Positions 5,182 to 35,025 of a stretch of DNA of 64,000 bases are shown in pieces. Position 1 is the first letter of the stretch. Each line of letters begins with the position of its first letter. Location of the stretch: positions 92,214,974 to 92,278,973 of the forward strand of contig CM068838.1 of NCBI GenBank assembly GCA_028554795.2. The letters are read 5' to 3'. Made by a program: the position numbers and the translations under genes. Under the pieces are notes generated by a model. That model ran no database searches. It saw nothing but the letters and a program-made list of their open reading frames with translations, and was not told where the DNA came from. Source of the stretch: Sinohyriopsis cumingii. Lineage: Eukaryota > Mollusca > Bivalvia > Unionida > Unionidae.

Positions 5182-5346
5182 CTTTGAAAGAGGACTGAAG
5201 AGGTTGGTAAGTTTGTTTTGACCCTTTGTCTTACGACTGTCATTTTCCCGAATGGTCCCTTGTGGGCTCACAGAGGCTGAGAGAGACATGGGGAAAGTGC
5301 TTTCATCTATGGATAGGTTGATTCCCCGACGACTCCTCAGGCTCCC
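5182..5346 (-). CDS. host gene exon (most 3' one visible), unidentified Ser/Arg-rich protein
   Basis: A 165-nt internal exon read on the minus strand, exactly 55 codons, phase 0 at both ends. The acceptor is AATTTCAG just above 5346 and the donor is GTAAAT just below 5182. The only open frame begins GSLRSRRGINLSIDESTFPM and ends NKLTNLFSPLSK. It is rich in Ser, Arg and Lys with likely basophilic phosphorylation sites, and looks like a disordered linker or regulatory region. The phase matches the preceding exon (18977-19132), 13.6 kb upstream in transcript order. Inference: an internal exon of a large protein. I do not recognise the family, and no stop codon is reached, so the gene continues. 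That this is a real exon is well supported by the frame, the splice sites and its GC content compared with its flanks. Confidence 0.75.
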
Positions 5347-5566
5347 CTGAAATGAATTTCCAGTTATCTATTAATCAACTGAATAATTAATTACAGGTAA
5401 CTGGTCTTGAATGATGTTGGAAGTTAATTTTTAAAATATAATTTTATATTGATTAAGTGATGTCACAGTTTCTGATGAATAATATACAAACTAATTCTTT
5501 ACAGTTAAACAACACCTAAAGTAACCTTCTATAAAAAATTTATAGGTTATTATAGTATATCCCTCC

Positions 5567-6350
5567 ATGCCAGCTTAATATGGCTATGCTAGTAGATGTA
5601 TACCCACCATGCCAACTTATGGATATGCTAGTATATGTATACCCACCATGCCAACTTCTGGATATGCTAGTAGATGTATACCCACCATTCCAGCTTAATA
5701 TGGCTATGCTTGTACATGTATACCCACCATGCCAATTTATGGATATGCTAGTAGATGTATACCCACCATTCCAGCTTAATATGGCTATGCTACATATATA
5801 CCCACCATGCCAGTTTATGGCTATGTTAGTAGATGTATACCCACCATGCCAGCTTAATATGGATATGCTACATGTATACCCACCATTCCAGCTTACAGCT
5901 ATGCTAGTAGATGTATACCCACCATACCAACTTATGGCTATGCTAGTAAATGTATACCCACCATGCCAGTTTATGGCTATGCTAGTAGATGTATACCCAC
6001 CATCCCAGCTTATGGCTATGCTAGTAGATGTATACCCACCATGCCAGCTTAATATGGATATGCTACATGTATACCCACCATGTCAGCTTATGGCTATGCT
6101 AGAAGATGTATACCCACCATGCCAGCTTATGGCTATGCTAGTAGATGTATACCCACCATTCCAGCTTATGGCTATGCTAGCAGATGTATACCCACCATGC
6201 CAGCTTATAGCTATGCTAGTAGATGTATACCCACCATGCAAGCTTATGGCTATGCTAGTAGATGTATACCCACCATGCCAGCTTAATATGGATATGCTAC
6301 ATGTATACCCACCATGCCAACTTAAATTCTAGGACACAAATCACCCTCCA
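5567..6350. repeat. 39-bp minisatellite, about 20 units
   Basis: Tandem units of about 39 bp with the core TATGGCTATGCTAGTAGATG followed by TATACCCACCATGCCAGCT. A second variant (AATATGGATATGCTACATG) recurs in a loose order. Because 39 is a multiple of three and most length changes keep the frame, a 250-codon open frame runs through the plus strand (repeating PPCQLMAMLVDVY). There is no start context, no unique sequence and no splice evidence, so I treat this frame as a by-product. The array lies in the 13.6-kb intron. Confidence 0.93.
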
Positions 6351-6829
6351 TGCCAGCTTAATGACAGAAGACATCAACATGTACATACTACAATACATTA
6401 TGAAAGTTGGACAATTTAAATGCATATATAAATTATTGTTTTATCCTTTTAATTGTGTTTGGAAATGACTTTAGTGTAACCTTCCACGGCAGTTTAATGT
6501 AGTTATTCTGGCATTTAATTTTGTGAAAACAGGCAAGTTAATTGTTCTGGATATCTAAATGAATTGTCCTTGAACAATACATTTTAGAAATGTTGCAAGT
6601 GAATGATCATATAATTACAAATAAAAGCAAATTTCTATCATGACAAAAAGAAACAGGAGTCCCTTGAAGGGACTGGCAATCTACTGTCCCAAAAGAATTT
6701 TTAATAAGACAATTTTTTTAAAATATGGAGTATTGAACCATATTTGATATTCTTGAGCAATACTGGATGTAATATTGGTACTATTGCCACATAGGAAAAA
6801 GTACACATCATTAGAAGATACAGTGAACA

Positions 6830-7468
6830 TTTCATGCCAATACGACCATCCATTCAGGATGAGTAGCAACTTCATGCCAATATGGCCATCCATTTGGGAC
6901 AAGTAGCAATTTCATGCTAATATGGTAATCAGTTTAGGACAAGTAGCAATTTCATGCCAATATGGCAATCCATTCAGTACGAGTAGCAACTTCATGCTAA
7001 TATGGTAATCCATTTAGGACAAGTAGCAATTTCATGCCAATATGGCTATCCATTTAGGACAAGTAGCAATTTCATGCTAATATGACCATCCATCCAGGAT
7101 AAGTAGCAATATCATGCCAATATGGCCATCCATTCAGTATGAGTAGCAACTTCATGCTAATATGGTAACCCATTTAGGACAAGTAGCAATTTCATGCCAA
7201 TATGGCTATCCATTTAGGACAAGTAGCAATTTCATGCTAATATGACCATCCATCCAGGATAAGTAGCAATTTCATGCCAATATGACCACCCAATCAGGGT
7301 GAGTAGCAATTTCATGCCAATATGGCCATCCATTCAGGTCAATAGGCAATTTCATGCCAATAGGCCATCCACTCAGGACGAGTTGCAATTTTACGCAAAT
7401 ATGGCAATCTAATTAGCACAAGTAGCAATTTCATGCCAATATGGCCATCCATTCAGGATAAGTAGCAA
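6830..7468. repeat. 40-bp minisatellite, about 16 units
   Basis: Units with the core TTTCATGCCAATATGGCCAT followed by CCATTCAGGACAAGTAGCAA. A four-unit block recurs with an offset near 160 bp (compare 7000-7110 with 7160-7270), so the array grew in part by multi-unit duplication. Confidence 0.92.
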
Positions 7469-7773
7469 AAACAAGGTTTTCAAGCCTCACCATATTCATT
7501 TTTGGGCCCAACAAGACCATGAAATGCATATATGAGTGTAAAGTCTTATGGAAATCCTCCAAGTTGTTTTGAGTTAATGCTAATACAGTCAAAGATATTT
7601 CTTATACAACAAGCCAACCCACGAGTTGTTCTGGTCTTAAACCATTAATGTTATAAAAAAAAATCTTCATGACTGCCATAGATACAAGTTTTTCTCCCTT
7701 TATTTGAAATTTAAGTTCTGATGAAGTTATTTCCCTTTTACAGAATTTATCTAATTTGTTGTTTTCTTTATCT

Positions 7774-8000
7774 TTAACACACTATCCCCTGGTGACAAGT
7801 TTACGTGGCAGAAGGTAGTATAGCCTACTGCCGAACTCTGTAGCGTCAAGGTCATGTATGATACACTTAAGTGGGTGGTATTATAGAAAGATAGACAGAT
7901 GTAGCTCTACAATGATATCAAATAATCTGGAAGTTCTAGTTGCACTACAAAATACAGAGGGAAAAACGTCATTTTTTTTACATGATTTTTTCCACCCCAT
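7774..8000. mobile_element. TTAA-type MITE, truncated copy
   Basis: Starts at TTAA (7774-7777) followed by CACACTATCCCCTGG, which resembles the terminal repeat of the element at 9929-10540. The next 200 bp or so match the reverse complement of 10345-10520 closely, including GTTTACGTGGCAG, TCTAGTTGCACTACAAAATA and CAGAGGGAAAAAC. Similarity fades near 8000 and no second terminus is visible. Confidence 0.75.
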
Positions 8001-8754
8001 TCAAATGCAAGGCCATATGGCCACCAGTGCCCCATTAAAATACAAGGCCATGTGGCCATCAGTGTCAAATAATCTTTCTGATATAAACAAGGCTTCAACT
8101 AGTAAACAACCACCATGTTGTTTACATTGATGTCGGCTGTTGACAACAGACCTTGACAGTATATATCTCTTTCAGTGATGTCTTTCACTAATGTAAGAAG
8201 CTGATATCTACTGGACAATCACTAGTAGTACATGCCTGATATTATTATCGCAGGATTTATGATTGGTGGGGATTTTACACATCCAGACATAAGTGTCATG
8301 ATTAATCATGCCTAAAGACAGACAGACAGAGGCTCTATTTAACAGTAACTAAACTGTCCCCACATAAAGAGCCAGATGACTTCATTCATAAATTTGTAAC
8401 TCTGGCACTACTCCTTCAAGGTCTCATCAATACAAAGCTCCATGCTAAATTAGTCCAACAGAGAGAGAGACATGTAAAGTTATGCTGCGAGATCCGAGTC
8501 AGGAGCACAGGCAATCAGGGTCTGTAACTCTTATAAATGATGTTGCAGAATGATAAGAAGACAAGAAATAAACTCACCATAGAATCTCAACAATCTGAAG
8601 CCAAATGAAAAATTTAGTTGAAATTCAAAATATTTTGGGTCAAGTTATACTGCAGAAACCAGTGTCAGAAAGACAAAGCATCAAAGGGCCATAATTCTTC
8701 AAAAAAGAATAAACCCATATAAGCCACATGGAAAGTCTATGGGACCAGGTTTAT

Positions 8755-9130
8755 ACCATATGCTGAATGGTTTGGTATGGTCTGGTTTAGTGTTTTATTG
8801 ATAAGTAAAACAAATAGGTTATCAGAATATGCTGAATGGTTTGGTATGGTCTGGTTCAGTGTTTTATTGATCAGTAACACAAATAGGTTATCAGAATATG
8901 CTTGATGGTTTGGTATGGTCTGGTTCAGTGTTTTATTGATCAGTAACAAAGATAGGTAATCAGAATATGCTGAATGGTTTGGTATGGTCTGGTTCATGCA
9001 GAGTCTATGAGACCAGGTTCATCCTGAATTAGATCAGAATTTACTGAATGGTTTGGTATGGTCTGGTTCAGTGTTTTATGGGACACGAACACAAACAGGT
9101 CATCAGAATATACTAAATGGTTTGTTATAG
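8755..9130. repeat. 69-bp minisatellite, about 5 units
   Basis: Units contain GCTGAATGGTTTGGTATGGT, CTGGTTCAGTGTTTTATTGA and ACAAATAGGTTATCAGAA. The unit near 9000 is disturbed, and the last one is strongly diverged. Confidence 0.9.
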
Positions 9131-9924
9131 TCTGAAACTATATTTTCTGGCACCAAATTGCATCAAATATGTTGAATGATTCATGAGCTATGATGGTTAA
9201 AATATTTTTCTATAATGGAGGCATAATACTGCTGGTAAAGGGCAATAACTCAATGGTTCAAGAACTGTGCTGGTCATAAGGATCTACTATTGGTGGCACT
9301 CTACAATTTCATATTTGCATAGGGTTAGAATTTTAAAGAAAAAGAATTTCCCCATCTTTCCTCACTGGTTATACCGGCTGTTTAAAAAAGACCTTGTATA
9401 TCTTAGGTATAATTCAAAGAACCTTTAATTCCCTTTATTTTGGTATATGATTGATGGGTGTAATATGAGTTATAGAGTATACAGTTTGGCCTTACTCCAA
9501 TTGGTAATTCATTCATTGCACTATCAGAAGCTGGTATTGTCAAGTCTGGCAAAATGAATTTTCCCCATTTTAATAGCTACTATGGATAGTGTACTATAGA
9601 CTAATTAATGCTGATTTTAGCACAAGGGAGCAGTCATTTTAGTTAGCAGTGTGCTTAGATCATGTACAATTTCCAAAAGTACAATATCCAAAGAAATATC
9701 ATCCACATTATATTAATATAGCATAGAGGTAGCGACATTCTCTCCATTGTGCATGTTTTAAATGCGAACAACTTCACCTTACATGTGTCACTCTCTCAAA
9801 AGTACCTAATAACTGGTAAGAGGCCCCATTACAGAAATATTGATGGAAAAGGGAAATAACTCCAATACTATTATAGAACTATTGATTGTAAAAGGGAAAT
9901 AACTCCACAAAAATAATAAAACCT
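9131..9924. other. spacer, no gene seen
   Basis: Contains AGGGCAATAACTC and AAAGGGAAATAACTCC motifs (9238-9250, 9848-9865, 9892-9910). In my experience these are common in mollusc interspersed repeats. No coding evidence. Confidence 0.4.
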
Positions 9925-9928
9925 TTAA

Positions 9929-10540
9929 CTCATTAACCCCTGGAGGTTTTTAGTCATTTTTGCCTGATATGCGAGAAGGAAACACATTTTGGGGACTATT
10001 TCTGAATACATCATAATACATCGACTTTCAGGGAATTTTCCATTAGCCTAATGCCTAGTTGTGTTAGAAACATCAGTTTTTATTGGTTATTTTGCTTGCA
10101 CATGAGCAGAAGGGTAAAAGTTTGGAGTTCTTTTTCTTTTTTTGCTTAACAGACCCATCATTTTCAAATCGAGACCACTCTTTATTTCAAATGCACACCT
10201 TATCCTACTTTTTGTAAAGGTTGACCTGTCTGTGTGCAGTTCAGACTGGTCTACCTTGGATCTGAGGCCAAAAAGTCTAAAATCAGGACACAAAATCGGA
10301 ATCTGACCACAGACACATTTTGGGTGGAAAACAAAATGGTCCAAAAAATGATGTTTTTCCCTCTGTATTTTGTAGTGCAACTAGAACGTCCAGATTATTT
10401 GGTATCTTTGAAGAGCTACATCTGTCTTCCTTTCAATAATACCACCCATTTTAGTGTATCTCACATGACCTTGATGCTACAGATCTCAGCAGTAGGCTAC
10501 TACCTCCTGCCACGTAAACGCGGCAGCAGGGGTAAATGAG
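9929..10540. mobile_element. 612-bp TTAA-flanked MITE, piggyBac-like ends
   Basis: Bounded by TTAA at 9925-9928 and TTAA at 10541-10544. The ends are inverted repeats: CTCATTAACCCCTGG on the left, and CTCATTTACCCCTGC when the right end is complemented (13 of the first 14 bases agree). A four-base TTAA duplication and C-rich ends of this type are known from the piggyBac superfamily. The interior has no transposase: the two 97-101 codon frames over 10087-10539 overlap on opposite strands and look fortuitous. A related truncated copy lies at 7774-8000 in inverted orientation. Confidence 0.75.
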
Positions 10541-10544
10541 TTAA

Positions 10545-11196
10545 AAGGTGTCTTTACATGTAAAAACCAATTCAGCTGCCAAACGTCATCTGTTACAGAT
10601 CTATACTGGTTGCACAAAGTGTGAATGGAAGAACAAATGATCTGACAGATGGATGGAAGAACAAATGGACTAACAGATGGATGGAGAGAGAAAAGGATTT
10701 TACCAAAGAGCTTCCACAGCCTGATAACATGCTCTAAATATATGACTTGGTCATGAAGCTTCAAAGTTATATTTGAAATTTTTACATAATACTTTTCAAT
10801 ATCATTTCGTTACTGCAACTGAACTGCTAATAAGGTTTCTTTCCAAAAATTCTATCCAGCGATAGTATGAAAAATCCAATTTAATTTCTTAATTCACAAT
10901 TACTGCAAAAAATAGAAAATCAAAATATGAAATGTAATCTGAAATAAAACAAATGTAATGATAGGCATAAATGATGTTAAATCTAATACAAATAGCATAC
11001 ACAAACAAAGCTTACTTGCATCTCAAAGAAAGCATGGGTTCAAAAGCAACTGGTAGGTGAACATTCTGTTTAAAAAAATTCATTTCATAAATTTTTCAAA
11101 AGCCACATTACGTTATGCTTTCAAATGTCTTTAGAGTCATACATTCTTCTGAATCAAATAAAGCAACAATTTCATTTGATTCATGATACAATATTT
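10545..11196. other. spacer, no gene seen
   Basis: Contains a diverged two-copy repeat of AACAAATG...CAGATGGATGGA near 10620-10690. Otherwise plain AT-rich DNA. Confidence 0.4.
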
Positions 11197-11280
11197 ACAA
11201 AAACAAAAAAATTCATGATATAAGTAATTACAAAACAAAAAAATTCATGATATAAGTAATTACAAAACAACATAATTCAT
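11197..11280. repeat. about 36-bp tandem duplication
   Basis: Two near-identical copies of AAAAATTCATGATATAAGTA followed by ATTACAAAACAA, with part of a third. Confidence 0.85.
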
Positions 11281-11391
11281 GGTACATGTCATTTTATTTA
11301 TTGCCACACTGCTAAACAAGATGAAGTTTGTCAGAGAATGAATAACCAGTAGTGAAATTATGCTGAATTTTGATGAGTTAAAGGGTTTTAT

Positions 11392-11490
11392 TAGTTGTTG
11401 TTGTTGTTGTTGTAGTGGGGTTTAACGCCATTTTTCAGCACACGATAGGCTATACATGGCGGCCAGTATTAATGGTGGAGGAAGAACCCG
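11392..11490 (-). mobile_element. SINE family A, 3' end only
   Basis: Minus-strand 3' end of SINE A: a (GTT)n stretch (the complement of the AAC tail), then GGGTTTAACGCCATTTTTCA, GATAGGCTATACATGGCGGC and GAGGAAGAACCCGGGG. A first GGGTTTTATTAG unit of the 22-bp array lies on its outer side (11383-11394), so the fragment appears to lie inside the left edge of the array. Alternatively the array was seeded from its GGGGTTTT end. Confidence 0.8.
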
Positions 11491-12322
11491 GGGTTTTATT
11501 AGTTGTATGGTAGGGTTTTATTAGTTGTATGGTAGGGTTTTATTAGTCGTTTGGTAGGGTTTTATTAGCTGGATGGTAGGGTTTTATTAGTTGTATGGTA
11601 GGATTTTATTAGTCGTTTGGTAGGGTTTTATTAGTTGTATGGTAGGGTTTTATTAGTTGTTTGGTTGGATTTTATTTGTTGGATGGTAGGGTTTTATTAG
11701 TTGTTTGGTAGGGTTTTATTAGTTGTTTGGTTGGGTTTTATTAGTTGGATGGTAGGGTTTTATTAGATGTATGGTAGGGTTTTATTAGTCGTTTGGTAGG
11801 GTTTTATTAGTTGTTTGGTTGGGTTTTATTAGATGGATGGTAGGGTTTTATTAGTTGTACGGTAGGGTTTTATTAGTTGTTTGGTTGGGTTTTATTAGTT
11901 GGATGGTAGGGTTTTATTAGTTGTTTGGTAGGGTTTTATTAGTTGTATGGTAGGGTTTTATTAGTCGTTTGGTGGATTTTATTAGATGTATGGTAGGGTT
12001 TTATTAGCTGTATGGTAGGGTTTTGTTAGTTGTTTGGTTGGGTTTTATTAGTTGGATGGTAGGGTTTTATTAGGCATTTGGTAGGGTTTTATTAGTTGTC
12101 TGGTTGGGTTTTATTAGTTGGATGGTAGGGTTTCATTAGTTGTTTGGTAGGGTTTTATTAGTTGTATGGTAGGGTTTTATTAGTCGTTTGGTAGGGTTTT
12201 ATTAGTTGGATGGTAGGGTTTTATTAGTTGTATGGTAGGGTTTTATGAGTTGTTTGGTAGGGTTTAATTAGTTATTTGGTAGGGTTTTATTAGTTGTTTG
12301 GTAGGGTTTTATTAGTCATTTT
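11490..12322. repeat. 22-bp minisatellite, about 38 units
   Basis: Units of GGTAGGGTTTTATTAGTTGT plus AT or TT. Variants TTGTAT, TTGGAT, CGTTTG and TTGTTT alternate. The same repeat resumes at 13165, after a LINE insertion. Confidence 0.95.
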
Positions 12323-12329
12323 ATTAGTT

Positions 12330-13163
12330 TCTCATTCACATCCTTACCTCAAACAATAAATATCAGCAACACCAGTATTAAATTCACACAGTCAGTATGA
12401 AACCTAGGTGTTACTCTTAACAGTACTCTCACATTGTACCAACATGTCATGAACTTATGCAAGGCTGCATATCTTGAGCTGAGACGCATCAGCTCCATTC
12501 ACAAATATCTTGTGTGTTCATTAGTACTTTCAAGACTGGACTATTGTAACTCATTCTGTCTGGTCCATCTCAATATCTACTCCAGAAACTTCAAAAAGTT
12601 CAAAACACAGCTGCTCAGATCATTCTTCTTAAGAGTACCCTACGCTGGCTTAATCCATTCAATCCAGAATCAAACACAAAATTTGTTCTCTGTGCTATGT
12701 TTCACTGTCGGACTCTAGTCCAACATACCTCTCCGACCTCACCCATGTGTACACACCAGCAAGATACTTATGCTCCTCTTCTGACAATCGTTTACTCATT
12801 ATTCCCACTATGAAAATGAAGTCATATGGACAACGTTCTTTTGCATACCAGGGCCCAGCAACATGGAATGAATTGCCCACTGAACTTAGACATGAAGACA
12901 CAGTGATCCCATTCAAGAGTGCTCTTAAAACTCACTTATTTCGACTGCAAAAACAAACTTAAAGACGTAATAATGTTTCCTACCTTAAATATTTTCAGCA
13001 TGTTTTTTATGTGTTCTAATTTCATGGTGTTTGTTTTTTGAAATAATAGCATTATATATGTTTTTTATGTTATAGGTGTTGTCTGATGTTGTAAAGTGCT
13101 TAGAGCTTCTAAAGATTAGGCGCTATACAAAGTCCTCATTATTATTATTATTATTATTATCAT
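12330..13163 (+). pseudogene. 5'-truncated CR1-like LINE fragment
   Basis: C-terminal part of a non-LTR retrotransposon ORF2 (reverse transcriptase and following region) in broken frames. Near 12395 a frame reads NLGVTLNSTLTLYQHVMNLC behind an in-frame TGA, where an Arg codon (CGA) is usual, consistent with CpG decay. It continues ISSIHKYLVCSLVLSRLDYC (12490-12550), the SRLDYCN motif being typical of CR1-type elements. After frameshifts near 12620-12740 it picks up again with YTPARYLCSSSDN and ends RSFAYQGPATWNELP...SALKTHLFRLQKQT with a TAA at 12960. The 3' UTR has the AGGCGCTATACAAA motif and an ATT-repeat tail (13138-13160). The element splits a 22-bp minisatellite, so it is younger than the array. 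It is inactive. Confidence 0.88.
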
Positions 13164-13164
13164 T

Positions 13165-13330
13165 ATCATTGTATGGTTGGGTTTAATTATTTGTTTGGGT
13201 GGATTTTATTAGTTGTTTGGGTGGATTTAATTAGTTGTAAGGTAGAACTTTATTAGTTGTTTGGTAAGGTTTTATTAGATGTATGGTAGGGTTTTATTAA
13301 TTGTTTGGAAGGGTTTTATTGGCACTTTCT
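13165..13330. repeat. 22-bp minisatellite, right-hand remainder
   Basis: Diverged units (TGTATGGTTGGGTTTAATTA, GTTTGGGTGGATTTTATTAG, TGTATGGTAGGGTTTTATTA) continue the array of 11490-12322 on the far side of the LINE. Confidence 0.88.
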
Positions 13331-14199
13331 GTGCTTTTTAAGGCTATATAATACAGCAGGAAGTGGGAGTTAAGTCCCTTCCCCAAAGACAAACTTTGGC
13401 AGTTTACGACGCTGGTCTGGACATGTCTCATAGCACAATCCTATGATAACTAGTTATATGCTCTGAAAGGGTTTCATATTAATAAAATAAACAAAACCTA
13501 CATAAGCAGGACACCTCTGTGTGAAGACATCTGCTCATACAGAACAAAATAAAACCTACTCTTATCTTTATGTCAAGGACATCTGCTAAGGACAACAATA
13601 CAACCTACAAGATGAATGGTCGATAATATTTTATTTTGTTTTATTTAACCTCAAAAACTTTAGTCGTTGCAAGTCAGGTGTATGAATATATACAAAATTA
13701 ATTGTGTGGCTTCAAAATATAAATTATATTAATATCTAACAAGAAATCTTTAGTCTCCTTAAATACTATCCATGTAATTATTATTATCACATCGATTGTA
13801 CAGGTACTGTAGGTACAAGCAATAAAATTGGCAACAAGTTGGTCATAAGACAGTACATAAGTATACACATAAACTTACAATTATAAATATACACAATACA
13901 ACAATGTATACATACAAGAATGGGTAAAACATGCGATACTAATAAAGCGCTACACGTGTCTGACCATGAAAGCTCATTACATATAACAAAGCATGCATTT
14001 GGGAACAACCATTGCATCGTTCTAATTCAATGGCCATTAATAACCAAATAAACAGTTTTCTAAAACTCCATATTCATTATTTCTAATGTGCAAAAAACAT
14101 CCAGCTAGGTTCTAAAAAAATGAAAACAATACAACAGAAAATGAGAAACTACTCTGTCTACATAAAGCATTTCCCCATGTTCAAGTACCAATGACCTAC
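13331..14199. other. spacer with a possible SINE C scrap
   Basis: The stretch at 13330-13440 contains TTAAGTCCCTTCCCCAAAGA, like the body of the SINE at 20970-21155, but no tRNA-like head is seen. The rest is AT-rich with no coding evidence. Confidence 0.4.
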
Positions 14200-14520
14200 C
14201 TTGTAAAATTGTAAAAATTAAGGATTAACTTATTATTTGTAAAGGCTTTCTTACATGAAACTTTGTGATAACTTTGCAAAATTAGGGGATGGATTTGCCA
14301 TTTGTGCAGGATAACTAAGATGAAACTTTGTGATAACTTTGTAAAATTAGGGGATGGACTTGCCATTTGTAAAGGATAACTAAGATGAAAATCTGTGATA
14401 ACTTTGTAAAACAGGGATCAACTTATTGTTGGTAAAGGCTTTCCTAGATAAAAATTTGTCAGAACCCAGTAAAAGTGGGGGATAGACTTAATGGACTTAC
14501 TCTCAGTAAAGGATCTCTTA
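14200..14520. repeat. 65-bp minisatellite, about 4-5 diverged units
   Basis: Units contain AACTTTGTGATAACTTTGTA, AAATTAGGGGATGGACTTGC and ATTTGTAAAGGATAACTAAG. The two central units are well matched, and the outer ones are eroded. Confidence 0.85.
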
Positions 14521-16518
14521 CATAAAGCTCTGCCAGGACTTAACGTTGGTGGTAATTTAATATATTATAGAAATTACATTTTAAATAAGAACTGTCAGCA
14601 ACTGACTCACTCAGTGTTGTGCCTTGCTTAATCTGTGCCTCTTCTGATCATGCTATTGTGTTAAATCTGGGGTGACCCTGATGGAGTTGGGAGGGAGAGG
14701 ACCCATGTGTTTGCCCAAGGTGCAGTACTGTACTGTCTAGGGGTAGAAAATTGTTTTAAAGTCAATGGTTATCCCAGGGCAACCATTTTTGCAAAGTGGA
14801 TGATCAGCAGATTATTTTGGATGTAATATAATTATCGAAATTGCCCACAAGATTGCTTGAATCATAATTATGCAACAACTTTTGTCATCTCTGTAGTTAG
14901 TTTTAATTGCACACAATACCTGTAACATACCATCAGTCCTGCTAAAGGAAAGTGTTACAGGGATAAATTTAATCTATTTCAGATAGCACATAAAACTGAA
15001 CAATATCTTTTTCAAAATATCTTGCCATCCATCAGTTTTCTAGTGACGATACAAAACCAGAAATATATCCATATTTATGTCTACCCATGTTCACGTCATT
15101 ATAGTTCATGTTAATGTTAATCTGACACTATTAATCATGTATTTAAACTGTCAAGAACATGTAAGCTTTCTGAGTGTGATTTTAGTTCAACCATTATCCC
15201 ACAAGCCAAAACAGCATGAAACAGCACTTGTGAATGGTTTAATTATTTTAAACTTGTCACATTGCTTTAGCTTAACTTAGCCAACAGAAGCAGCTGTCAC
15301 ATTATCAACAGAGAGTGTCCATTTCATCAACAGACCAATGAGAAAGTGTAGATAATAAACTTTCACTTTGTCAAGCCAAAGAACCCACTATCATATCTTG
15401 ATGTGTTGATAAAAGACAAATATTTACAAGTCTTGTTTATTTTTTTGAAGGTTTTCAACCTGAGAGCTGGAAGTATGGACTGAACACCTAATAGATAATG
15501 AGAAGCTGACACATGGATTAATGGATTAATATGGAATCTTACTGGTAATCATCACCCAATACTTAAGTACTGAATAATGTACTGATAATTTGGGCATCCT
15601 GATGAAGGTACCCAGAAAGACCATGTAAGAACCAAATATTTGTCACTAGAAAGTATATAAACCTCCATTATAATTTTAAATGATTCTTTTTTTATTAATA
15701 TTTTTGGGCTGCCCTAACAAAATTTCACATTGCCTAGCATTAAATTTTAGTTGTCCCCGGCTCCAAGGAAATTGATTTTCTACCCCTGCAATACAGATAT
15801 ATCCTAAAATGACAAGCAGTTATGTACATGTATATATGTGCATATATGTGTAATTATATGTTTATATATGCATACACTATAGATATATGTAAATACTATA
15901 TATATGCACTAAATATTACCAAAATGTACTTTATATAAGTGTATAGCTTGCTCAGTAAAAAATATATAAATATTTTTCAAAGAAAATAAAAAATGTCACA
16001 TTCTCTGGAGTGGTTTTTGAGAAACAATATTAAACATTTTTATTTTTTTAGTAATAGCAGCCATGTTTGATGGAAGTGTGTCAACATTTGTGCAAATTTA
16101 AAAGTCTTTCAGTGCAGTAATGCATTGCAGCAAATTTTCTCAAATTCTGTTGATCATGATTGTGAAGAAGTAATTTAAGGACTTTTCATTTTTAGTAGCA
16201 GAGGCCATATTTGAAGGCTAAGCAGCATTATTTGTATTCACTTAAAAGAACTTCATTCCAATGCCAACCAATGTATCCCCTAGGGTGCAAGACTGAGAGT
16301 CAAAACTCTCCTTTGGTGTCAAATTGGGGGGGGGGGGGGTCAGACTTAGTAAAAAACAAACTTTGGTATCACAACTGGGGGTCAAATAAAAAAATTGGGG
16401 GTCTCTGAAATGTAAATGAGGGTAAAGGGAAACACTGGCCAATCATTCCAGGATGTGATCAAATTTGTTCAATTTTGCTGAGGTTTTTTTGAGAAGTTGT
16501 TTAATGATTGCAAAAACT
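14521..16518. other. spacer with degenerate interspersed repeats
   Basis: Plain AT-rich DNA to about 15900. From there, degenerate copies of a motif like TCTGGAGTGGTTTTTGAGAA recur near 16002, 16480, 16970 and again at 62038. This looks like an old dispersed family whose borders I cannot place. A run of 14 G lies at 16326-16339. No gene seen. Confidence 0.45.
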
Positions 16519-18976: not shown

Positions 18977-19132
18977 TGAGCTTTCATCATTTGTTCGTGT
19001 ACCATCCCCAGCTTTTGGGGATGGGAAAAATGCCTGAAATGGCAGTTGTAGTGAGCTGCGTCGTTGCCTCCCATTTGGTGGGGGTTCAAGCAAAGTGTAC
19101 ATTCGTCCGGCCACTGATTCCCTGCGACTCAT
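18977..19132 (-). CDS. host gene exon, unidentified basic/Ser-rich protein
   Basis: A 156-nt exon on the minus strand, 52 codons, phase 0 on both sides. The acceptor ATCGTACAG is above 19132, and the donor is the full consensus GTAAGT below 18977. The frame opens MSRRESVAGRMYTLLEPPPN, continues with GRQRRSSLQLPFQAFFPSPK and ends in an acidic GDGTRTNDESS. RRES and RRSS are typical basophilic kinase sites (protein kinase A/AKT-like consensus), and the composition suggests an intrinsically disordered region. Although it begins with ATG, the strong acceptor in front and the matching phase of the 24006-24115 exon make an internal exon more likely than a start. The local GC content stands out from the flanks. 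The family is not recognised. Confidence 0.82.
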
Positions 19133-21155: not shown

Positions 21156-21450
21156 ATCAACAATACAGAAAAAAATCAATAATATGGATGTTGTTTATCT
21201 GGACATACCGATCATAAGGACTAACAAAGTATTAGTATCATTCAGCCCGAAGTTTATGTGGCTCAGAGCTCTCTCAGTCATACAACTTTCTGGTAAAATG
21301 CTTCAGTGAAGAAAGGTGCTTTATCTAGACGTACTTTCTGCAATCGTTCAAACCAAAATTCTATAAAATCATAATCATAACTTTGTAAACAGATGATGAT
21401 GCAGACTTGTCACAATTAGCCAATGAAAATGTAAATGTTTATGCAAAACG

Positions 21451-21642
21451 TGACATCATCTTATCATCACATGACATCATCTTATCATCACATGACATCA
21501 TCTTATCATCACATGACATCATCGTATCATCACATGACATCATCTTATCATCACATGACATCATCGTATCATCACATGACATCATCTTATCATCACATGA
21601 CATCATTGTATCATCACATGACATCATCTTATCATTACAATG
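21451..21642. repeat. 21-bp minisatellite, 9 units
   Basis: GACATCATCTTATCATCACA plus T, nearly perfect, with units alternating CTTATC and CGTATC from the fourth onward. All three forward and reverse frames stay open because the period is seven codons. Confidence 0.96.
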
Positions 21643-22974
21643 ACATATTACATAACAAATCATGAGTAAATCAAATCATTTTTACAAATTTTGGGAAAGC
21701 CTCATTCTAGCCTTGCAAGAAAACTCTGGGACGTTTTTAAAACTAGGCCATCATTTGGCAAAGATTTCATTGGGTGATGTAAGAAGCTTGGTTGAAAGAA
21801 ACTATTGAAGTGTTTCACTCTTCACGCAGACACTTGGGATGTAATCTCTTCCTTTCACTCTGAATACAGTTATTGACTATTTTAATTGTAAACCAAATGA
21901 AGCATTTTTCTATAGGTGCTGTTCCACAGACTATTTTCTCTCAGATACCTTATATTCATAAACAAGAGGCCTAAGAAGGACAAATACTGTACACTGAATA
22001 CACTGATGTATAATACAAATCCTGTAATATGGGAGGTGCCTATGGTATAAAGACACCCACATCAGGATATTTCCAGTTATTTCGTAGAAATTGGTGAACA
22101 CTGTGGGTTGGGAGCTACCCCAGAAACAAATCTGACTGAATGTCCAAGCAAACATTCTTACCAAGTCTGATTGCAGTTGGCTCAGATGTGCAAAGGAGAA
22201 TCAAAAGCCGATTATTTCCCATGTGGTCATTTAGAGAAGCCACTCCATACACAATTTTATACAGAATTTTGTATCAAACCCTACTAACCAAGTGTGATCA
22301 AAATTAGATCAGCTGTCCTAGAGAAGAAATTCAAAAAAGGTATCCCCAAAGGATGCTTTGAAAGGAGAGCCAACCCAATCATAAGTCTGATAGATTATTT
22401 TCCATAATGGATTCCACACCATTCTAAGTGATGCCACATTAAACATACTTTTGGTAAAGCAATTCCTAACGAACATTCCTTCCAGATTTAACTGAAAAGC
22501 ATTTTCTTAAAGGAAGTTAACAACAGTAATATTGATGGATGATGCATGTCAGATAAGCTCAGATGGCTGTAACGCCTTCTTGAGCTAAAAACCTGCAGTC
22601 GAAATATCAACATTTAGCAAGTTCAGATTACAAAACATTTTCTTTTCTGACTATGAAAGTGTTTTTGGCAAGTATGCATAACCTGCAGTGGCTGGTGCAC
22701 AACACACTAACAAAATTGCAGTTGGCAACAGAGGTGATGAGAGGGTGGACTTATGACACATAATCCTCTGTGATGAGCATCAACTTCTCCCAGATACAAA
22801 ACATATTATGAATTAATGATAAATATTCTGGGCTTCCATTTATCCAAATAAAATCTATTTTCCTGAGCTTGGACTAGTGAGATTTTGCAGTGGAATGCTG
22901 TAAATTTCAACATCTGAAATCCTAAAGGTAGGTAGGAAACCAAATAATGCTGTGTCTCAGAACTCTTACCTTTT
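21643..22974. other. intronic spacer, no gene seen
   Basis: Includes motifs such as ACCAAGTGTGATCAAAATTA (near 22290) that reappear in diverged form around 36640-37090, suggesting an old dispersed repeat. No coding evidence. Confidence 0.4.
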
Positions 22975-23625
22975 TAAAAATTCTATATCAATAAAAAACT
23001 TGATGTTTTTAACAATTCTATATCAATGCCAACTTGCCTATTAAACAATTCTATATCAATGACAACTTGCCTATTTAACAATATCAATGACAACTTGCCT
23101 ATTTAACAATTCTATATTAATGCCTACATGCCTTTTTAACAATTCTATATCAAAGCCAGCTTGCCTATTTAACAATTCTATATCAATGCCAACTTACCTT
23201 TTTAATAATTCTATATCAAAGCCAGCTTGCCTATTTAACAATTCTATATCAATGCCAACTTGCCTTTTTAACAATTCTATATCAAAGCCAGCTTGCCTAT
23301 TTAACAATTCTATATCAATGCCAACTAGTCTTCTTAACAATTCTATATCAATGCCAACTTGCCTTTTAAACAATTCTATATCAAAGCCAACTTGCCTATT
23401 TAACAATTCTATATCAATACCAACTTGGCTTCTTAACAATTCTATATCAATGCCAACTTGTCTTCTTAACAATTCTATATCAATGCCAACTTGCCTTTTT
23501 CACAATTCTATATCAAAGCCAACTTGCCTTTTTAACAATTTTATATCAATGTGAACTAGCCTTTTTAACAATTATATATCAATGCCAGCTTGCCTATTTA
23601 ACAATTGTATATCAGTGACAACTTA
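22975..23625. repeat. 33-bp minisatellite, about 19 units
   Basis: Units of AACAATTCTATATCAATGCC followed by AACTTGCCTTTTT. AAAGCCAGCTTGCCTATTT variants alternate with AATGCCAACTTGCCTTTTT over 23145-23320, giving a local 66-bp dimer pattern. A 155-codon plus-strand frame and a 92-codon minus-strand frame both run through and are by-products of the period. The array ends about 380 bp from the donor of the exon at 24006-24115. Confidence 0.95.
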
Positions 23626-24005
23626 CCAAGAATAAAGAATATTGTTTCCAGACTCCTGATTTTTTACAATTCTTTATTAATGACTACTTGCAAAATGTAA
23701 ATGCATGTCAAATTGTCAAATAAAGGCAGATGATCGATATTTTACATAGGATTCAATCTGACAGGTAAATCTGCATTAATCCAAACCTTGCAATACTATT
23801 ATAGCAAAAGGGAAAGGCCATAGCATGAATTTTGTGTTACTGTGGTTTTATACTGCAAAGAAAAGCCTGCTTCAAGAAGATGAATAAAAAAGTTTAAACA
23901 TTCAAAACCAATCCCAAAATGGTTGTGAAAATGAGGCACTTTTAAGCAAAATATGCAAAGTGATTTTCCTTTCATGTTAAATCAGAAAGGAACTTATCAA
24001 CCTAC

Positions 24006-24115
24006 CCCAGCCTTGGAGTTCTTGGAGTTCTGACCTTTGCCCCCTGTGAGCTTAGCCCCAGTGGCTTTGCTCAGTGACTGGCTTCCACTTGGTGGCAGTG
24101 TTTCACCATCCTTCT
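24006..24115 (-). CDS. host gene exon, Ser/Lys/Gly-rich
   Basis: A 110-nt exon on the minus strand. The acceptor is a good polypyrimidine tract ending TTTTCTTCAG above 24115, and the donor is GTAGGT below 24006. Only one frame is open: AG completes a split codon, then KDGETLPPSGSQSLSKATGA and KLTGGKGQNSKNSKAG follow. The phase is 1 on entry and 0 on exit. It fits the exon at 28387-28443, whose last base G plus AG makes a Glu codon, and the exon at 18977-19132, which starts in phase 0. CAG/AG alternative acceptor use one codon piece later is possible. Low-complexity Ser/Gly/Lys content suggests a disordered linker. The family is not recognised. Confidence 0.78.
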
Positions 24116-24609
24116 CTGAAGAAAAAAAAAGAGATAGCTGAAAGTTACAAAAATATTAGGTACTATTTCAACCTGTGTATTATATGTGCCTATGTTGGCA
24201 GATCAGCAGTGGCATCTTTAGGTGTCAGGGTCTGGGATTTACACCAGCAACTTTGCTACTAGCACCCACCTACATTCAGCAAATCAATAATTGATTTTTA
24301 AGACAAAAATATTTTAAAAAATCCAGTTTTTGTGGAAAATGCTTGTACTCATAAAATTAGTGAACACAATGGATCAGTCTCAATTTCTCACACTTTGTTG
24401 TGTGTTGTGTAGTAAAAATTGTAAGGAAGTGTTTCAACCAAAGTAGTATTTAAAATCTTAAACATTAAAACAATATCTGTAGATTGTTTTACAAGCTATA
24501 ACTTTTACTGAGCTTGAAAGTTTAGATTCAAATCAACAATTTCACAGATTTTCTCAGCATTTGTGTAATTACTTTTGTCTCATTTCATTACATTAAAAAA
24601 ATCAATAAA

Positions 24610-27066
24610 ATGGACTTTGTTGATAGTGGACTTTATACAAACACTGTTGACAGTGGACTTCATGCAAATACTATGTTGACAGTGGACTTCATACAAATAT
24701 TATGTTGACAGTGGACTTCATACAAATACTATGTTGACAGTGGACTTTATATAAACACTATGTTGACAGTGGACTTCATACAAATACTATGTTGACAGTA
24801 GACTTCATATAAATACTATGTTGACAGTGGACTTCATACAAACACTATGTTGACAGTGGACTTCATACAAATACTATGTTGACAGTGGACTTCATACAAA
24901 CACTATGTTGACAGTGGACTTCATACAAACACTATGTTGACAGTGGACTTCATACAAACACTATGTTGACAGTGGACTTTATACAAACACTGTTGACAGT
25001 GGACTTCATACAAACACTATGTTGACAGTGGACTTTATACAAACACTGTTGACAGTGGACTTCATACAAATACTATGTTGACAGTGGACTTCATACAAAC
25101 ACTATGTTGACAGTGGACTTCATATAAATACTATGTTGACAGTGGACTTCATACAAACACTATGCTGACAGTGGACTTTATACAAACACTGTTGACAGTG
25201 GACTTCAAACAAATACTATGTTGACAGTGGACTTCATACAAACACTATGTTGACAGTGGACTTCATACAAACACTATGTTGACAGTGGACTTCATATAAA
25301 TACTATGTTGACAGTGGACTTCATACAAATACTATGTTGACAGTGGACTTCATATAAATACTATGTTGACAGTGGACTTCATACAAACACTATGTTGACA
25401 GTGGACTTCATACAAACACTATGTTGACAGTGGACTTCATACAAACACTATGTTGACAGTGGACTTTATACAAATACTATGTTGACAGTGGACTTCATAC
25501 AAATACTATGTTGACAGTGGACTTCATATAAATACTATGTTGACAGTGGACTTCATATAAACACTATGTTGACAGTGGACTTCATACAAATACTATGTTG
25601 ACAGTGGACTTCATACAAACACTATGTTGACAGTGGACTTCATACAAACACTATGTTGACAGTGGACTTCATATAAATACTATGTTGACAGTGGACTTCA
25701 TACAAATACTATGTTGACAGTGGACTTCATACAAACACTATGTTGACAGTGGACTTTATACAAACACTGTTGACAGTGGACTTCATACAAATACTATGTT
25801 GACAGTGGACTTCATACAAATACTATGTTGACAGTGGACTTCATATAAATACTATGTTGACAGTGGACTTCATACAAATACTATGATGACAGTGGACTTC
25901 ATACAAATACTATGTTGACAGTGGACTTCATACAAAAACTATGTTGACAGTGGACTTCATATAAATACTATGTTGACAGTGGACTTCATACAAACACTAT
26001 GTTGACAGTGGACTTCATACAAACACTATGTTGACAGTGGACTTCATACAAATACTATGTTGACAGTGGACTTCATATAAATACTATGTTGACAGTGGAC
26101 TTCATACAAATACTATGTTGACAGTGGACTTCATATAAATACTATGTTGACAGTGGACTTCATACAAACACTATGTTGACAGTGGACTTCATATAAACAC
26201 TATGTTGACAGTGGACTTCATACAAACACTATGTTGACAGTGGACTTCATACAAACACTATGTTGACAGTGGACTTCATACAAACACTATGTTGACAGTG
26301 GACTTCATACAAACACTATGTTGACAGTGGACTTCATATACATACTATGTTGACAGTGGACTTCATACAAATACTATGTTGACAGTGGACTTCATATAAA
26401 TACTATGTTGACAGTGGACTTCATACAAACACTATGTTGACAGTGGACTTCATACAAATACTATGTTGACAGTGGACTTCATACAAATACTATGTTGACA
26501 GTGGACTTCATGCAAACACTATGTTGGCAGTGGACTTCATACAAACACTATGTTGACAGTGGACTTCATACAAACACTATGTTGACAGTGGACTTCATAC
26601 AAACACTATGTTGACAGTGGACTTCATACAAATACTATGTTGACAGTGGACTTCATACAAATACTATGTTGACAGTGGACTTCATATAAATACTATGTTG
26701 ACAGTGGACTTCATACAAACACTATGTTGACAGTGGACATCATACAAATACCATGCTGACAGCGGACTTCATATAAATACTATGTTGACAGTGGACTTCA
26801 TACAAACACTATGTTGACAGTGGACTTCATACAAATACTATGTTGACAGTGGACTTTATACAAACACTGTTGACAGTGGACTTCATACAAACACTGTTGA
26901 CAGTGGACTTCATACAAATACTATGTTGACAGTGGACTTCATACAAACACTATGTTGACAGTGGACTTCATACAAACACTATGTTGACAGTGAACTTTAT
27001 ACAAACACTGTTGACAGTGGACTTCATACAAATACTATGTTGTCAGTGGACTTCATACAAACACCA
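24610..27066. repeat. 29-bp satellite-like array, about 85 units
   Basis: The largest array of the window, 2.46 kb of TGTTGACAGTGGACTTCATA followed by CAAACACTA. Three main unit types differ at the end (CAAACAC, CAAATAC, TAAATAC). A shorter 26-bp type lacks the ATG before TTGACAG (for example near 24640, 24990, 25045, 25190, 25770 and 26870). Unit types recur in blocks, which suggests expansion by multi-unit duplication. The array makes up more than half of the 4.3-kb intron between exons 28387-28443 and 24006-24115. The period is not a multiple of three, so no long frame results. Confidence 0.97.
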
Positions 27067-27276
27067 TGATTGATAAAAGTTTTTCATTCAGAATAATATG
27101 TTTTTGTCATAAATTTTATCAAAATTTGTAGAAAATTATGCTCTTTAATTATGACATAGTTAAGCTTAACTTGCCTTAGTCAAACATTCAAAATATTTGG
27201 GCCAGTTGGTTGTGTACACCTTTTAAGCAGTCACGGTCAATTAACTGGACCCACTGGGATTGAGACATTATTTTTT

Positions 27277-27545
27277 GTGCGAATGATTGGTTGTTTGGAT
27301 AAATAAAGGAAAGCCAAGGCCTGCATGTTGAACTCTGATTGTTTGTTTGGATAAATTAAGGAAGGCTAGGGCCTGCATGTTGAGCTCTGATTGGTTGTTT
27401 GGACAAATAAAGGAAAGCCAAGGCCTGCATGTTGGGCTCTGATTGGTTATTTGGATAAATAAAATAAGGCCAGGGCTTGCATATTGAGCTCTGATTGGTT
27501 GTTTTGGATAAATAAAGGATGTCCAGGGCCTGCATGTTGAGCTCA
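27277..27545. repeat. 52-bp minisatellite, 5 units
   Basis: Units contain GGATAAATAAAGGAAAGCCA, AGGCCTGCATGTTGAGCTCT and GATTGGTTGTTT. A 107-codon minus-strand frame passes through and is not taken as a gene. Confidence 0.93.
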
Positions 27546-28307
27546 TGATCAAAACATCACTGTAAAGTTTGTGACCTTGACCCAAAATCAAACTGTTGAG
27601 CGAGCATGCAGCAGAATTGCCTTAGTGCCTTATTTAGTCAACCAAATTATGGAGAAAATCCATCTAGGGTTGTAGGAAAATTAAACAGATGAAAAACTTC
27701 CATTAGAACCTTAAATCAGATTTATATAACAGTGATAAAACAAAATGTAATCAAAACCTAATTTAATGGCATCTTTTATTTTATGAAATTAATTTTTATA
27801 TTTTCATTTTTTGTTGTTGAAAGATTAACCTTCCATACGTTTTTCTTTACATTTTTGTTACCTTTACATTTCTGAAACTAAGAATTAAATAATGTCACTA
27901 TATAGCCAGGACTGTGCTGACACTGTGAATCCCTATATGTATGTATATATAAATCAATGGACTTTAATCATTTATATAATTATGCCCATAAATACTTATA
28001 GTGATCAAGCGGCTCCTTCAAAGCGGCTGATCACCTTATGTTTATCCTTACACCACCCCAGATGAAAATAAATATTAAAAAATGTAAAATTACTGACAGT
28101 GATGTGAGCCTCTAATCAGATCATAGAAATATTCCTGTAAGTATTCATACCATATTTGTCTTAGCAATGTGGTTTCTATGTTAATAAGTTAACATGAGCT
28201 CTGCATGAATAGACCATATGGGGCAAATCAAGATATCCAACTGTTGAACTAAATATTCAAAAAGCACTACATAGCCAGGATTGTGCTGATGTGCCACTAA
28301 ACAACCC

Positions 28308-28358
28308 CCCCCCACACACACACACATTTGTACATATATGTGTGTGTGTGTGTGTGTG
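28308..28358. repeat. (CA)n facing (TG)n inverted microsatellite
   Basis: A C run and CACACACACA (28308-28325), a short AT-rich centre (TTTGTACATATA), then TGTGTGTGTG (28339-28357). The two arms are complementary and could fold into a hairpin of ten or more base pairs in the intron, about 30 bp past the donor of the next exon. Confidence 0.85.
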
Positions 28359-28386
28359 GAAAGAACTAAGAATACTAAACTCTCAC

Positions 28387-28443
28387 CTGACTCTGTGTCA
28401 CTATGGTCTCCAATTTTGAATATTATCGACAAAGTTTCCATCC
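28387..28443 (-). CDS. host gene exon, 57 nt
   Basis: A short minus-strand exon with donor GTGAGA below 28387. The acceptor ATATAG above 28443 is weak, with little polypyrimidine tract. It is 57 nt, phase 1 on both sides. The frame reads (split Trp codon) METLSIIFKIGDHSDTES plus the first base of a Glu codon. The other two frames contain stops. The acidic end joins naturally to KDGETLPP of the next exon. With one symmetric phase on both sides, the exon could be skipped without breaking the frame. Support is the phase fit on both sides; the weak acceptor lowers confidence. Confidence 0.6.
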
Positions 28444-29731
28444 CTATATTTTACGTATACAGTGTAATGTAAAAATTCAGCAATTCTATAGTGGTCTGAA
28501 ATGGGTAGTTTCCAACATTTTTCTTTTGTGTCTCTCTGTATAGACTCTCTGTACAGACTCTTGAATTAAACCTCCACAGCATTTAAAATTGTTGGATCCA
28601 CAATCCTTATCAGAGAAGTAAAATTACATGAAAATTGATTCATGACAAATATGGCATTCAACGAGATACTCTTTTCATCAATAACCCAGAACATTTTTAG
28701 CACAATCCATTGTAAGATCATTCCTTTGGTTCAATTGTAACAAATGTACATAGCCTTTATCACTGAGTAAACATTTTAGATGCATGTGTTACTGAGAAAT
28801 GAGAATAGAGCATTTGTAGATAGCAAACACTTCAATGCAATTATCAGTTAAAAGACAAGTGATGAGATATCTTTTGCATAGATCCAGCAACATGCAAACA
28901 AGTCCTCATTTTGAACAACACAATGTTTCTTTCAACATCATTCAATCCTTTTAAATTCAGTATATTGATGATATTAAACTTTTAACAAATTTCATAAATT
29001 TTATTCCAGAGAGTTACTGAATTAGAACTTCTTGTGCCTTCATCAATAAGGATCAGCCTTCATTGTTGTGACAATTTCAGAAAATACAAGTTTGATTCGC
29101 TTGTAAATCCCACTGTCGATGCTCAAAACTCAACATATCATTCCTCCACTATCTCACAGAAAAGATAATTTTCCAACAGAGCGCAACTGCCTGGGGGGGG
29201 GCCTGATGTAGTGCATGTGTGCATATGAATGTCATTTTCTACTAAAGAAACTTGTACAACAGTGACTGGTTGTACACATTGTTACTGTCTTTTAGCACCT
29301 TCATGTCAGAGCCAATCCTCAGCAGTACCAACCTGGATACAATGAAACAATACGGTACACAATAGAGTAAGTAACTAATACCACACAGCCTGAGATAAAT
29401 ATAATGTAAATTCCAGCATCATTTTTGATGCAAGTTACAGAACTGTAGCATGTAGATTTTGAATATTTTCCAGGGAGAAAGAATTGATACATGCCTGAGT
29501 ATGTATGCACTAGTCTTATGTAAGTAGGTCCCAAGGATTGAATACATGTTTCCAATCCATTTATCTACCTACTTGTCTGTCACCATGTCTGTCTGTCAAG
29601 ACATGTCAATTAACATTTAATACTACAGTATAATCTTATCGAATGAAAAAATATTTTAAGAATTGCTTTTAAAATGAAAAATGAACAAATACTTTTGATA
29701 AACTGTCAAGTACCATTTATAATTGTTCTGA
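28444..29731. other. intronic spacer, no gene seen
   Basis: AT-rich with one GGGGGGGG run near 29195. No exon-like stretch found. Confidence 0.4.
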
Positions 29732-29918
29732 TACAACTGTAAACTTCATAGACCTAGATCTGGAGTTGTATAAAGTGCTGGCAGATCTAGGTGTATAGTT
29801 TTCTAGGAGTAATTAGTAGAACAAACAACAAAAACCCAAATCTGCTAGTGTATTATGTGACAGCAGATTAAGTCAATGTTGTTTGCAGTTGGACCCCACT
29901 TTTATGTGATTATATAAA
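29732..29918. mobile_element. palindromic MITE, family P, diverged
   Basis: Contains CATAGACCTAGATCTGGAGT facing GGCAGATCTAGGTGTATAG, then AGGAGTAATTAGTAGAACAA and GTTTGCAGTTGGACCCCACT, in the same order as the other P copies. The ends are eroded. Confidence 0.75.
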
Positions 29919-30238
29919 GCAAGTACAATTAAAACTAAATTATGAAATAAAAATACCAGAAAGATAAACACTGCATCAACACAATATTAATTTATATTTT
30001 AAAAACAGGAACTAAACAAAGGTTTATTTAAAAACAATCAACTTCTTCCTAACTTGTTAATGTATGAATTTTAAATTATTTGGAATTTTAAACATAATAT
30101 ACAATAGGGAGATAATGCCTTTTAGGTAAACTTGCTGGTCACATAAAAACACAATGATGTAACATAATTAAAGCACTGTTATAAGTGACATATATATTTT
30201 TATATCATGGTGTAAACTAATACAGGTAAATGCAAGGT

Positions 30239-30434
30239 AGGTTTGTTGAATACATGTTGTATAGGTATGACACTGTTGTACTTACAGTGATGTTGAATAC
30301 ATGTTGTATAGGTATGACACTGTTGTACTTACAGTGATGTTGAATACATGTTGTATAGGTATGACACTGTTGTACTTACAGTGATGTTGAATACATGTTG
30401 TATAGGTATGACACTGTTGTACTTACAGTGATGT
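30239..30434. repeat. 47-bp tandem repeat, 4.2 perfect units
   Basis: GATGTTGAATACATGTTGTA, TAGGTATGACACTGTTGTAC and TTACAGT repeat without visible change, so the expansion is recent. Read on the minus strand (the gene's sense) each unit carries CACTGTAAGTAC, which includes the consensus 5' splice site GTAAGT. Confidence 0.96.
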
Positions 30435-30483
30435 TTGATAATACCAAAACAAAAGTAAGGTTTCTATAATATTTCTGGCACCA

Positions 30484-31440
30484 AATGTCTTGGAAATCAA
30501 AGTCTTGGAAATCAAAGTCTTGGAAATTGACATCTAACTGATACTGATATATTGGCAATCAACATCTAATTGATATCAATGTATTGGAATTTGATATCTA
30601 ACTGATATCAATGTATTGGAAATTGATGTCTAATTGATATCAATGTATTGGAAATCGATGTCTAGTTGATATCAGTGTATTGGAAACTGATGTCTAATTG
30701 ATATCAATGTATTGGAAATTGATTTCTAGTTGATATCAATGTATTGGAAATTGATGTCTAATTGATATCAATGTATTGGAAATCGATGTCTAGTTGATAT
30801 CAGTGTATTGGAAACTGATGTCTAATTGATATCAATGTATTGGAAATTGATTTCTAGTTGATATCAATGTATTGGAAATTGATGTCTAATTGATATCAAT
30901 GTATTGGAAATCGATGTCTAGTTGATATCAGTGTATTGGAAACTGATGTCTAATTGATATCAATGTATTGGATATTGATTTCTAGTTGATATCAATGTAT
31001 TGGAAAATGATGTCTAATTGATATCAATGTATTGGAAATCGATGTCTAGTTGATATCAGTGTATTGGAAACTGATGTCTAATTGATATCAATGTATTGGA
31101 AATTGATTTCTAGTTGATATCAATGTATTGGAAATTGATGTCTAATTGATATCAATGTATTGGAAATCGATGTCTAGTTGATATCAGTGTATTGGAAACT
31201 GATGTCTAATTGATATCAATGTATTGGATATTGAAGTCTAATTGATATCAATGCATTGGAAAATGATGTCTAATTGATATCAATATATTGGAAATTGATG
31301 TCTAATTGATATCAATGTATTGGAAATCAACATCTAATTGATATCAATGTATTGGAAATCGACATCTAATTGATATCAATGTATTGGAAAGCAACATCTA
31401 GTGGATATCAATGTCCTGGTAATTGATGTCTTGGATATCA
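30484..31440. repeat. 32-bp minisatellite with an exact 128-bp higher-order period
   Basis: Units of GATATCAATGTATTGGAAAT followed by TGATGTCTAATT. The marker unit with AATCGATGTCTAG begins at 30653, 30781, 30909, 31037 and 31165, exactly 128 bp (four units) apart each time. Within a block the order is CGATGTCTAG, ACTGATGTCTAAT, TTGATTTCTAG, TTGATGTCTAAT. The left edge (30484-30530) is a short AAATCAAAGTCTTGG repeat and the right edge is monomeric. Confidence 0.96.
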
Positions 31441-31631
31441 ATCTGATAAGATGTGAGAAATAATGGGTTTTGCAGAAATGCATCTGCAGTACAGTAAATT
31501 TAGACAGAAACTGCAAGACATAAAAATAACCTTCTCTATAAAAAAATCTATGGTTAAATATGAGTGACCTTTATAGTTCTGACACCAATAATTACAAAAG
31601 AATTTCAAAACCTGTTACAGCAGGATCATAT

Positions 31632-31938
31632 TTTCTTATATATATGTAAGAATGGAGCCAGTTTTTGCTATTCTTAAATATATGTAAGAGTGGAGCCAGT
31701 TTTTGCTATTCTTATATATATGTAAGAATGGGGCCAGTTTTTGCTATTCTTATATATATGTAAGAATGGAGCCAGTTTTTGCTATTCTTATATATATGTA
31801 AGAATGGAACCAGTTTTTGCTATTCTTATATATATGTAAGAATGGAGCCAGTTTTTGCTATTCTTATATATATGTAAGAATGGAGCCAGTTTTTGCTATT
31901 CTTATATATATGTAAGAATGGAGCCAGTTTTTGCTATT

Positions 31939-32020
<82 letters not shown>

Positions 32021-32034
32021 AGAATGGAGCCATA
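31632..32034. repeat. 38-bp minisatellite ending in a (TA)n expansion
   Basis: Eight or so units of GAGCCAGTTTTTGCTATTCT followed by TATATATATGTAAGAATG. In the last unit the short TATATATA core has grown to about 34 TA pairs (31942-32012) and then resumes GTAAGAATGGAGCC. Confidence 0.95.
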
Positions 32035-32566
32035 TATATTGCTATTGTTCTTATTTTCTACCATTTTAATCAATTAGGTAACTGTGTACCTGGATTTGTG
32101 GTTTAACTGATTTGATCCACCATAAAGTCAATTAGACTTCCCTGATTTAACCTCTTGAGGCTGTTTTGTTCCAATTACATGACAATTAGCCACAATGAGA
32201 TGTGATCTTTAACTGAGGAGTAATTTTTTTTCCTGATTTTCAGACTGTACTGCATAATCTTTCATAGGCACAATAAACCCATTTGGAATCACTTACCTCT
32301 TTCAACATCTTGTCATATTTACCATCTAGACGTGTTCACCTATGTACAGTATCCCTGGCTATACAGTAACAATTTTCATGGAAGTTTAATAATGGGACTC
32401 CCTTAGAGATGAGGTGATTTTATATTGAGGTATTTTAGTCATTAAATAATGAAGTGGGCTCCATGGCCATACATACCTTACAAAAGGGGCTGCCTTAAAT
32501 TGAGGTACCTTAAATTGAAGGACATCCAATGTAACAATCACCAAAATATGAACAACATTAACTTAC
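32035..32566. other. intronic spacer, no gene seen
   Basis: AT-rich DNA with a weak duplication (CCTTAAATTGAGGTACC, near 32490). No coding evidence. Confidence 0.4.
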
Positions 32567-32611
32567 ATCTGTTGCTGTTTAGTGTGCTGGAAGATTTTGG
32601 GTCTTCCTTCA
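32567..32611 (-). CDS. possible host gene exon, 45 nt (most 5' one visible)
   Basis: A candidate microexon on the minus strand. The donor is the consensus GTAAGT below 32567, and the acceptor TTAAACAG above 32611 has a poor pyrimidine tract. The frame KEDPKSSSTLNSNR is Ser-rich like the following exons. It leaves one base T, which with GG of the next exon gives Trp, so phase 1 matches on both sides. A competing reading uses the upstream CAG (starting ILNSEGRPKIF) but then meets a stop in the next exon. The evidence is phase, donor and composition only, so this may be a chance fit. Confidence 0.42.

Positions 32612-34953: not shown

Positions 34954-34957
<4 letters not shown>

Positions 34958-35022: not shown

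Positions 35023-35025
<3 letters not shown>

Follow-up and report, generated by a model that had tools for sequence, protein, structure and literature searches.

Ordinary multi-exon genes of animals are the closest described systems for the locus presented here. By general knowledge, their common traits are introns bordered by GT and AG, exons of 110-165 bases and junctions in phase 0, and all of these recur in three short stretches on the minus strand of a 64,000-nucleotide window of the Sinohyriopsis cumingii genome, which is the whole stretch of DNA that was analyzed. The likeness extends to Ser/Lys/Arg-rich low-complexity sequence and to a gene with no visible long open reading frame. Nothing tested sets the three-exon gene apart from ordinary animal genes of this kind, in which disordered linkers are rich in serine and introns are long. 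Judged from the DNA and its translation, the three stretches are probably internal coding exons that follow one another directly or almost directly in an ordinary minus-strand spliceosomal gene, which holds repeats in its introns and would encode a linker. The outcome for the Sinohyriopsis cumingii genome is at most one gene model added or corrected. Short exons in minisatellite-rich DNA are detectable by G+C content, splice signals and phase despite the longer spurious frames of repeat arrays.

Splice signals and phase of three minus-strand exons

Identification of candidate exons relied on a search for stretches of 45-900 bases between AG and GT with an open frame, which were scored with generic splice matrices and with log-odds of codon use relative to a Markov model of the window's background. 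Both the splice and codon models were hand-made from general knowledge and were not trained on Sinohyriopsis cumingii. Candidates with more than 30% of their length covered by within-window repeats, as masked by self-BLAST, were left out. The within-window G+C baseline is 0.346 by base counts, with 2-kb stretches spanning 0.28 to 0.39. The firm exons are as follows.

24006..24115, minus strand: internal coding exon, firm; two split-codon bases at entry, ends in phase 0; KDGETLPPSGSQSLSKATGAKLTGGKGQNSKNSKAG
18977..19132, minus strand: firm internal coding exon of 156 nt; both borders in phase 0, one open frame
5182..5346, minus strand: firm internal coding exon of 165 nt; both borders in phase 0, one open frame

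The three stretches carry exon-like signals, coding-like composition and compatible phases. The highest total under the splice-plus-coding model, 33.8, belongs to 24006-24115, in which an acceptor of 13.6 bits (only 0.04% of AG sites are as good) and a donor of 9.1 accompany a coding score of +11.1 bits and a G+C content of 0.55. The exon at 5182-5346 totals 28.8 (acceptor 5.2, donor 7.8, coding +15.8 bits, G+C 0.49). The total of 25.3 for 18977-19132 includes a coding score of +16.1 bits (G+C 0.51), and its splice sites are mediocre: the acceptor of 4.3 is equalled or bettered by 13% of AG sites and the donor of 4.9 by 7.6% of GT sites. The junctions 24006/19132 and 18977/5346 are both in phase 0, and the introns that separate the exons, of 4873 and 13630 bases, contain several minisatellites and other repeats; self-BLAST of the window placed no repeat on any of the three exons.

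Minus-strand candidates were also chained in consistent phase at exon penalties of 12, 14 and 16, and the best chain includes all three firm exons each time. The same chains also include doubtful candidates, with 42553-42712 present at all three penalties and weak candidates between the firm exons entering at penalties 12 and 14; hence, the chain by itself is no proof of a gene. The exons may be real and come from more than one gene or transcript, for example with a start in 18977-19132 and with 24006-24115 ending another transcript. The former opens with an ATG directly after the AG, so that a start codon is also possible, and is the best-scoring minus-strand candidate for an initial exon; the latter has a frame that runs to a stop ending 9 bases beyond its donor and is the best candidate for a terminal exon, while the 13.6 kb intron has room for other units. 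Such a division is nevertheless unlikely, as all three exons lie on one strand in compatible phase and with similar composition, the minus strand of 5347-24005 has no equal candidate (the next-best unmasked one, 12729-12879, scores 19.9) and the sole plus-strand candidate above 25 in that interval is the shadow of 18977-19132. The three exons would probably be transcribed together, as parts of one gene. Its first and last exons are candidates only, so the three exons make up a fragment of a gene that presumably continues on both sides.

Encoded peptide and its likeness to known proteins

The three-exon peptide has 143 residues, including 24 Ser, 15 Gly, 13 Leu, 12 Arg, 11 Lys and 11 Pro. The original prediction gave the joined reading of all five proposed exons a Ser/Lys/Arg-rich, phosphosite-like character, which these counts of Ser, Arg and Lys bear out for the three firm exons, although as a suggestive property only. 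Two RRxS/T motifs are present, and at least as many occurred in 373 of 20000 shuffles of the same composition. RRxS is the kind of site that is phosphorylated by basophilic kinases such as PKA, and the two sites would be targets of such enzymes. The low-complexity stretch of 143 residues may form a disordered linker between folded domains that are encoded by exons elsewhere. A disordered, kinase-regulated linker is the most likely protein product, as far as it can be predicted from the translation.

Neither 18977-19132 nor 5182-5346 matched Pfam when searched singly. The peptide of the two exons 24006-24115 and 18977-19132 matched DUF6321 (PF19846) across their junction, with an E-value of 0.00017 and 22.6 bits; the score for all three exons joined was 21.4 bits, and none of eight shuffles of the two-exon peptide matched the family. 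Membership was rejected, as no form tried reaches the curated cut-off of 28.5 bits, the best being the two-exon peptide. The match is taken as one of chance or composition. The two-exon peptide matched nothing in PHROGs or, by tblastn, in phages, and exon 5182-5346 likewise had no PHROGs match. Among PDB sequences, the joined peptides had matches only at E-values of 0.9 or worse; those to recoverin and chymase, at about 1, were rejected as chance. No relative of exon 18977-19132 was found in GTDB contigs, nor of exons 18977-19132 and 5182-5346, each searched separately, in IMG/VR. The collections searched are not animal genomes, and the absence of relatives therefore says little about novelty. 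Rfam at the gathering threshold and ARAGORN yielded no hits, and short peptide strings looked up in a collection of papers were not found there.

The lack of an accepted domain and of a homologue in these collections would also fit remnants of an unprocessed pseudogene with frames still open and no functional protein. This is very improbable in view of three exons that are fully open and retain intact GT/AG borders.

Exon scores compared with chance

On the minus strand, four non-overlapping unmasked candidates score at least 25, namely the three firm exons and 42553-42712; on the plus strand, the shadow of 18977-19132 is the only one. In 300 simulated strands, the mean number of candidates at or above 25 was 0.057, with a maximum of one per strand, and the score of 33.8 was reached by none. 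An earlier simulation of 40 strands of 43390 bases gave a mean of 0.10. Reversed sequences scored against the forward background produced 8 and 6 such candidates, a result attributed to that background; when the reversed strands were rescored with their own recomputed background, the counts were 0 and 0. The three exons at 24, 19 and 5 kb had been called firm in the original prediction, and their scores, well above those of the simulated strands, uphold this.

A check of G+C content that used neither splice nor codon model singled out 109 of 35840 fully unmasked 150-base windows with at least 49% G+C. These fall into five blocks, three of which lie on the firm exons (5192-5369, 18960-19157 and 23962-24150). 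The remaining two are 14588-14748, which has stops in all six frames, and 21003-21153, whose only open frame of the six lies on the minus strand and which resembles an old tRNA-derived SINE. Open-frame stretches between AG and GT number as many as 3069 and 3424 on the two strands at the thresholds used, but that the firm exons are chance open stretches in G+C-rich patches is hardly credible given the results of the simulations and of the reversed strands scored on their own background.

Two further exons had been proposed upstream.

28387..28443, minus strand: proposed exon 2, at background level; donor 11.7, acceptor 1.3, coding -0.1 bits, total 12.9
32567..32611, minus strand: proposed exon 1, unsupported; total 9.8 from acceptor 0.2, donor 7.8 and coding +1.8 bits

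All five stretches have the AG/GT borders described for them on the minus strand, and they join without a stop into 533 nt and 177 residues. The claim of a single open frame in each holds for exons 2 to 5 and fails for exon 1, in which two of three frames are open. The G+C content is 0.42 in 32567-32611 and 0.39 in 28387-28443. The donors of both are good (as good are 1.9% of GT sites for exon 1 and 0.08% for exon 2), and their acceptors are equalled or bettered by 49% and 37%, respectively, of the AG sites on both strands. The minus strand of 24116-36000 holds 379 unmasked candidate exons, 22 of which (8 non-overlapping) score at least 12.5; among the 59 with the needed phases, exon 2 ranks second and exon 1 seventh. 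Simulated strands average 19.1 non-overlapping candidates at or above 12.9, the score of exon 2. Of the two, only 28387-28443 enters a best chain, and only at penalty 12; 32567-32611 is absent at all three penalties. The five-exon model was rejected for exons 1 and 2, whose scores are at background level, although both may be real. Of the proposed gene, spliced from the minus strand across long introns and lacking a long open reading frame, the three-exon part survives; the upstream two exons are at chance.

Upstream CpG-rich sequence and repeats of the window

A further candidate lies beyond the proposed exon 1.

35515..35670, minus strand: possible upstream coding exon; TPVEWTDENIFHIISFKSIEVPNRDFEEYEGNDLMRAKLGGKAYPARIIEIA, 52 residues, with a strong donor at its phase-0 end

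The donor scores 10.7 bits and the 3' 105 nt score 22.9; the 5' border is uncertain, with an A-rich run and an in-frame TAG immediately upstream. Direct joining to 24006-24115 was rejected because the phases do not fit: 35515-35670 ends in phase 0, whereas one leftover base is required by 24006-24115; a join of the two would call for one or more exons in between. The candidate may belong to the same gene or to another. Its peptide may resemble the N-terminal part of BEND5-like proteins; the Pfam BEN domain matched neither the 52-residue exon alone nor the exon joined to the five. The peptide had no match in Pfam or PHROGs and no relative in GTDB contigs, and its PDB matches were only at E-values of 0.59 and above.

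The adjoining stretch 35701-36100 has a CpG observed/expected ratio of 0.89, compared with 0.18 for the window, and ranks 12th of 636 400-base stretches. The stretches ahead of it are repeats under full or partial masking, apart from two in the transposon-like 42201-42700 that are unmasked. A scan of 35400-36300 for promoters of bacterial type, a model that does not apply to eukaryotes, returned 8 against 6.0 in shuffles. It is possible that 35515-36100 is the 5' end of a minus-strand gene. That the exons belong to a lineage-specific gene that has no homologues outside its clade, a promoter at about 35.6-36.1 kb and a disordered kinase-target protein spread over at least 30 kb of minisatellite-rich introns is decidedly improbable. 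Outside repeats, the CpG ratio is 0.20 and that of TpG+CpA is 1.38; the strong CpG depletion suggests widespread CpG methylation.

Two candidates named above were set aside as repeat-like. Opposite 12729-12879, the stretch 12586-12746 reads like what we presume to be the tail of a LINE. The candidate 42553-42712 was classed as a transposon remnant: the overlapping minus-strand frame 42460-42712 resembles a MULE-type DNA transposon, and the only Pfam match of this region, to ASA5 (E 0.14), is below the cut-off. The unmasked block 42101-43100 has CpG ratios of 0.80-0.97 in seven 400-base steps. A remnant of a non-LTR retrotransposon occupies 43902-44883 on the minus strand with two overlapping open reading frames, one of which matches a reverse transcriptase (PF00078, E 1.9e-11) and the other nothing in Pfam. 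An 84-base repeat at 63.77-63.95 kb was rejected as coding sequence, being a tandem repeat. Large minisatellite arrays lie at 24614-27073 (85 copies of a 29-base unit) and at 57207-59123 (53 copies of a 36-base unit), the latter with a spurious frame of 445 codons inside.
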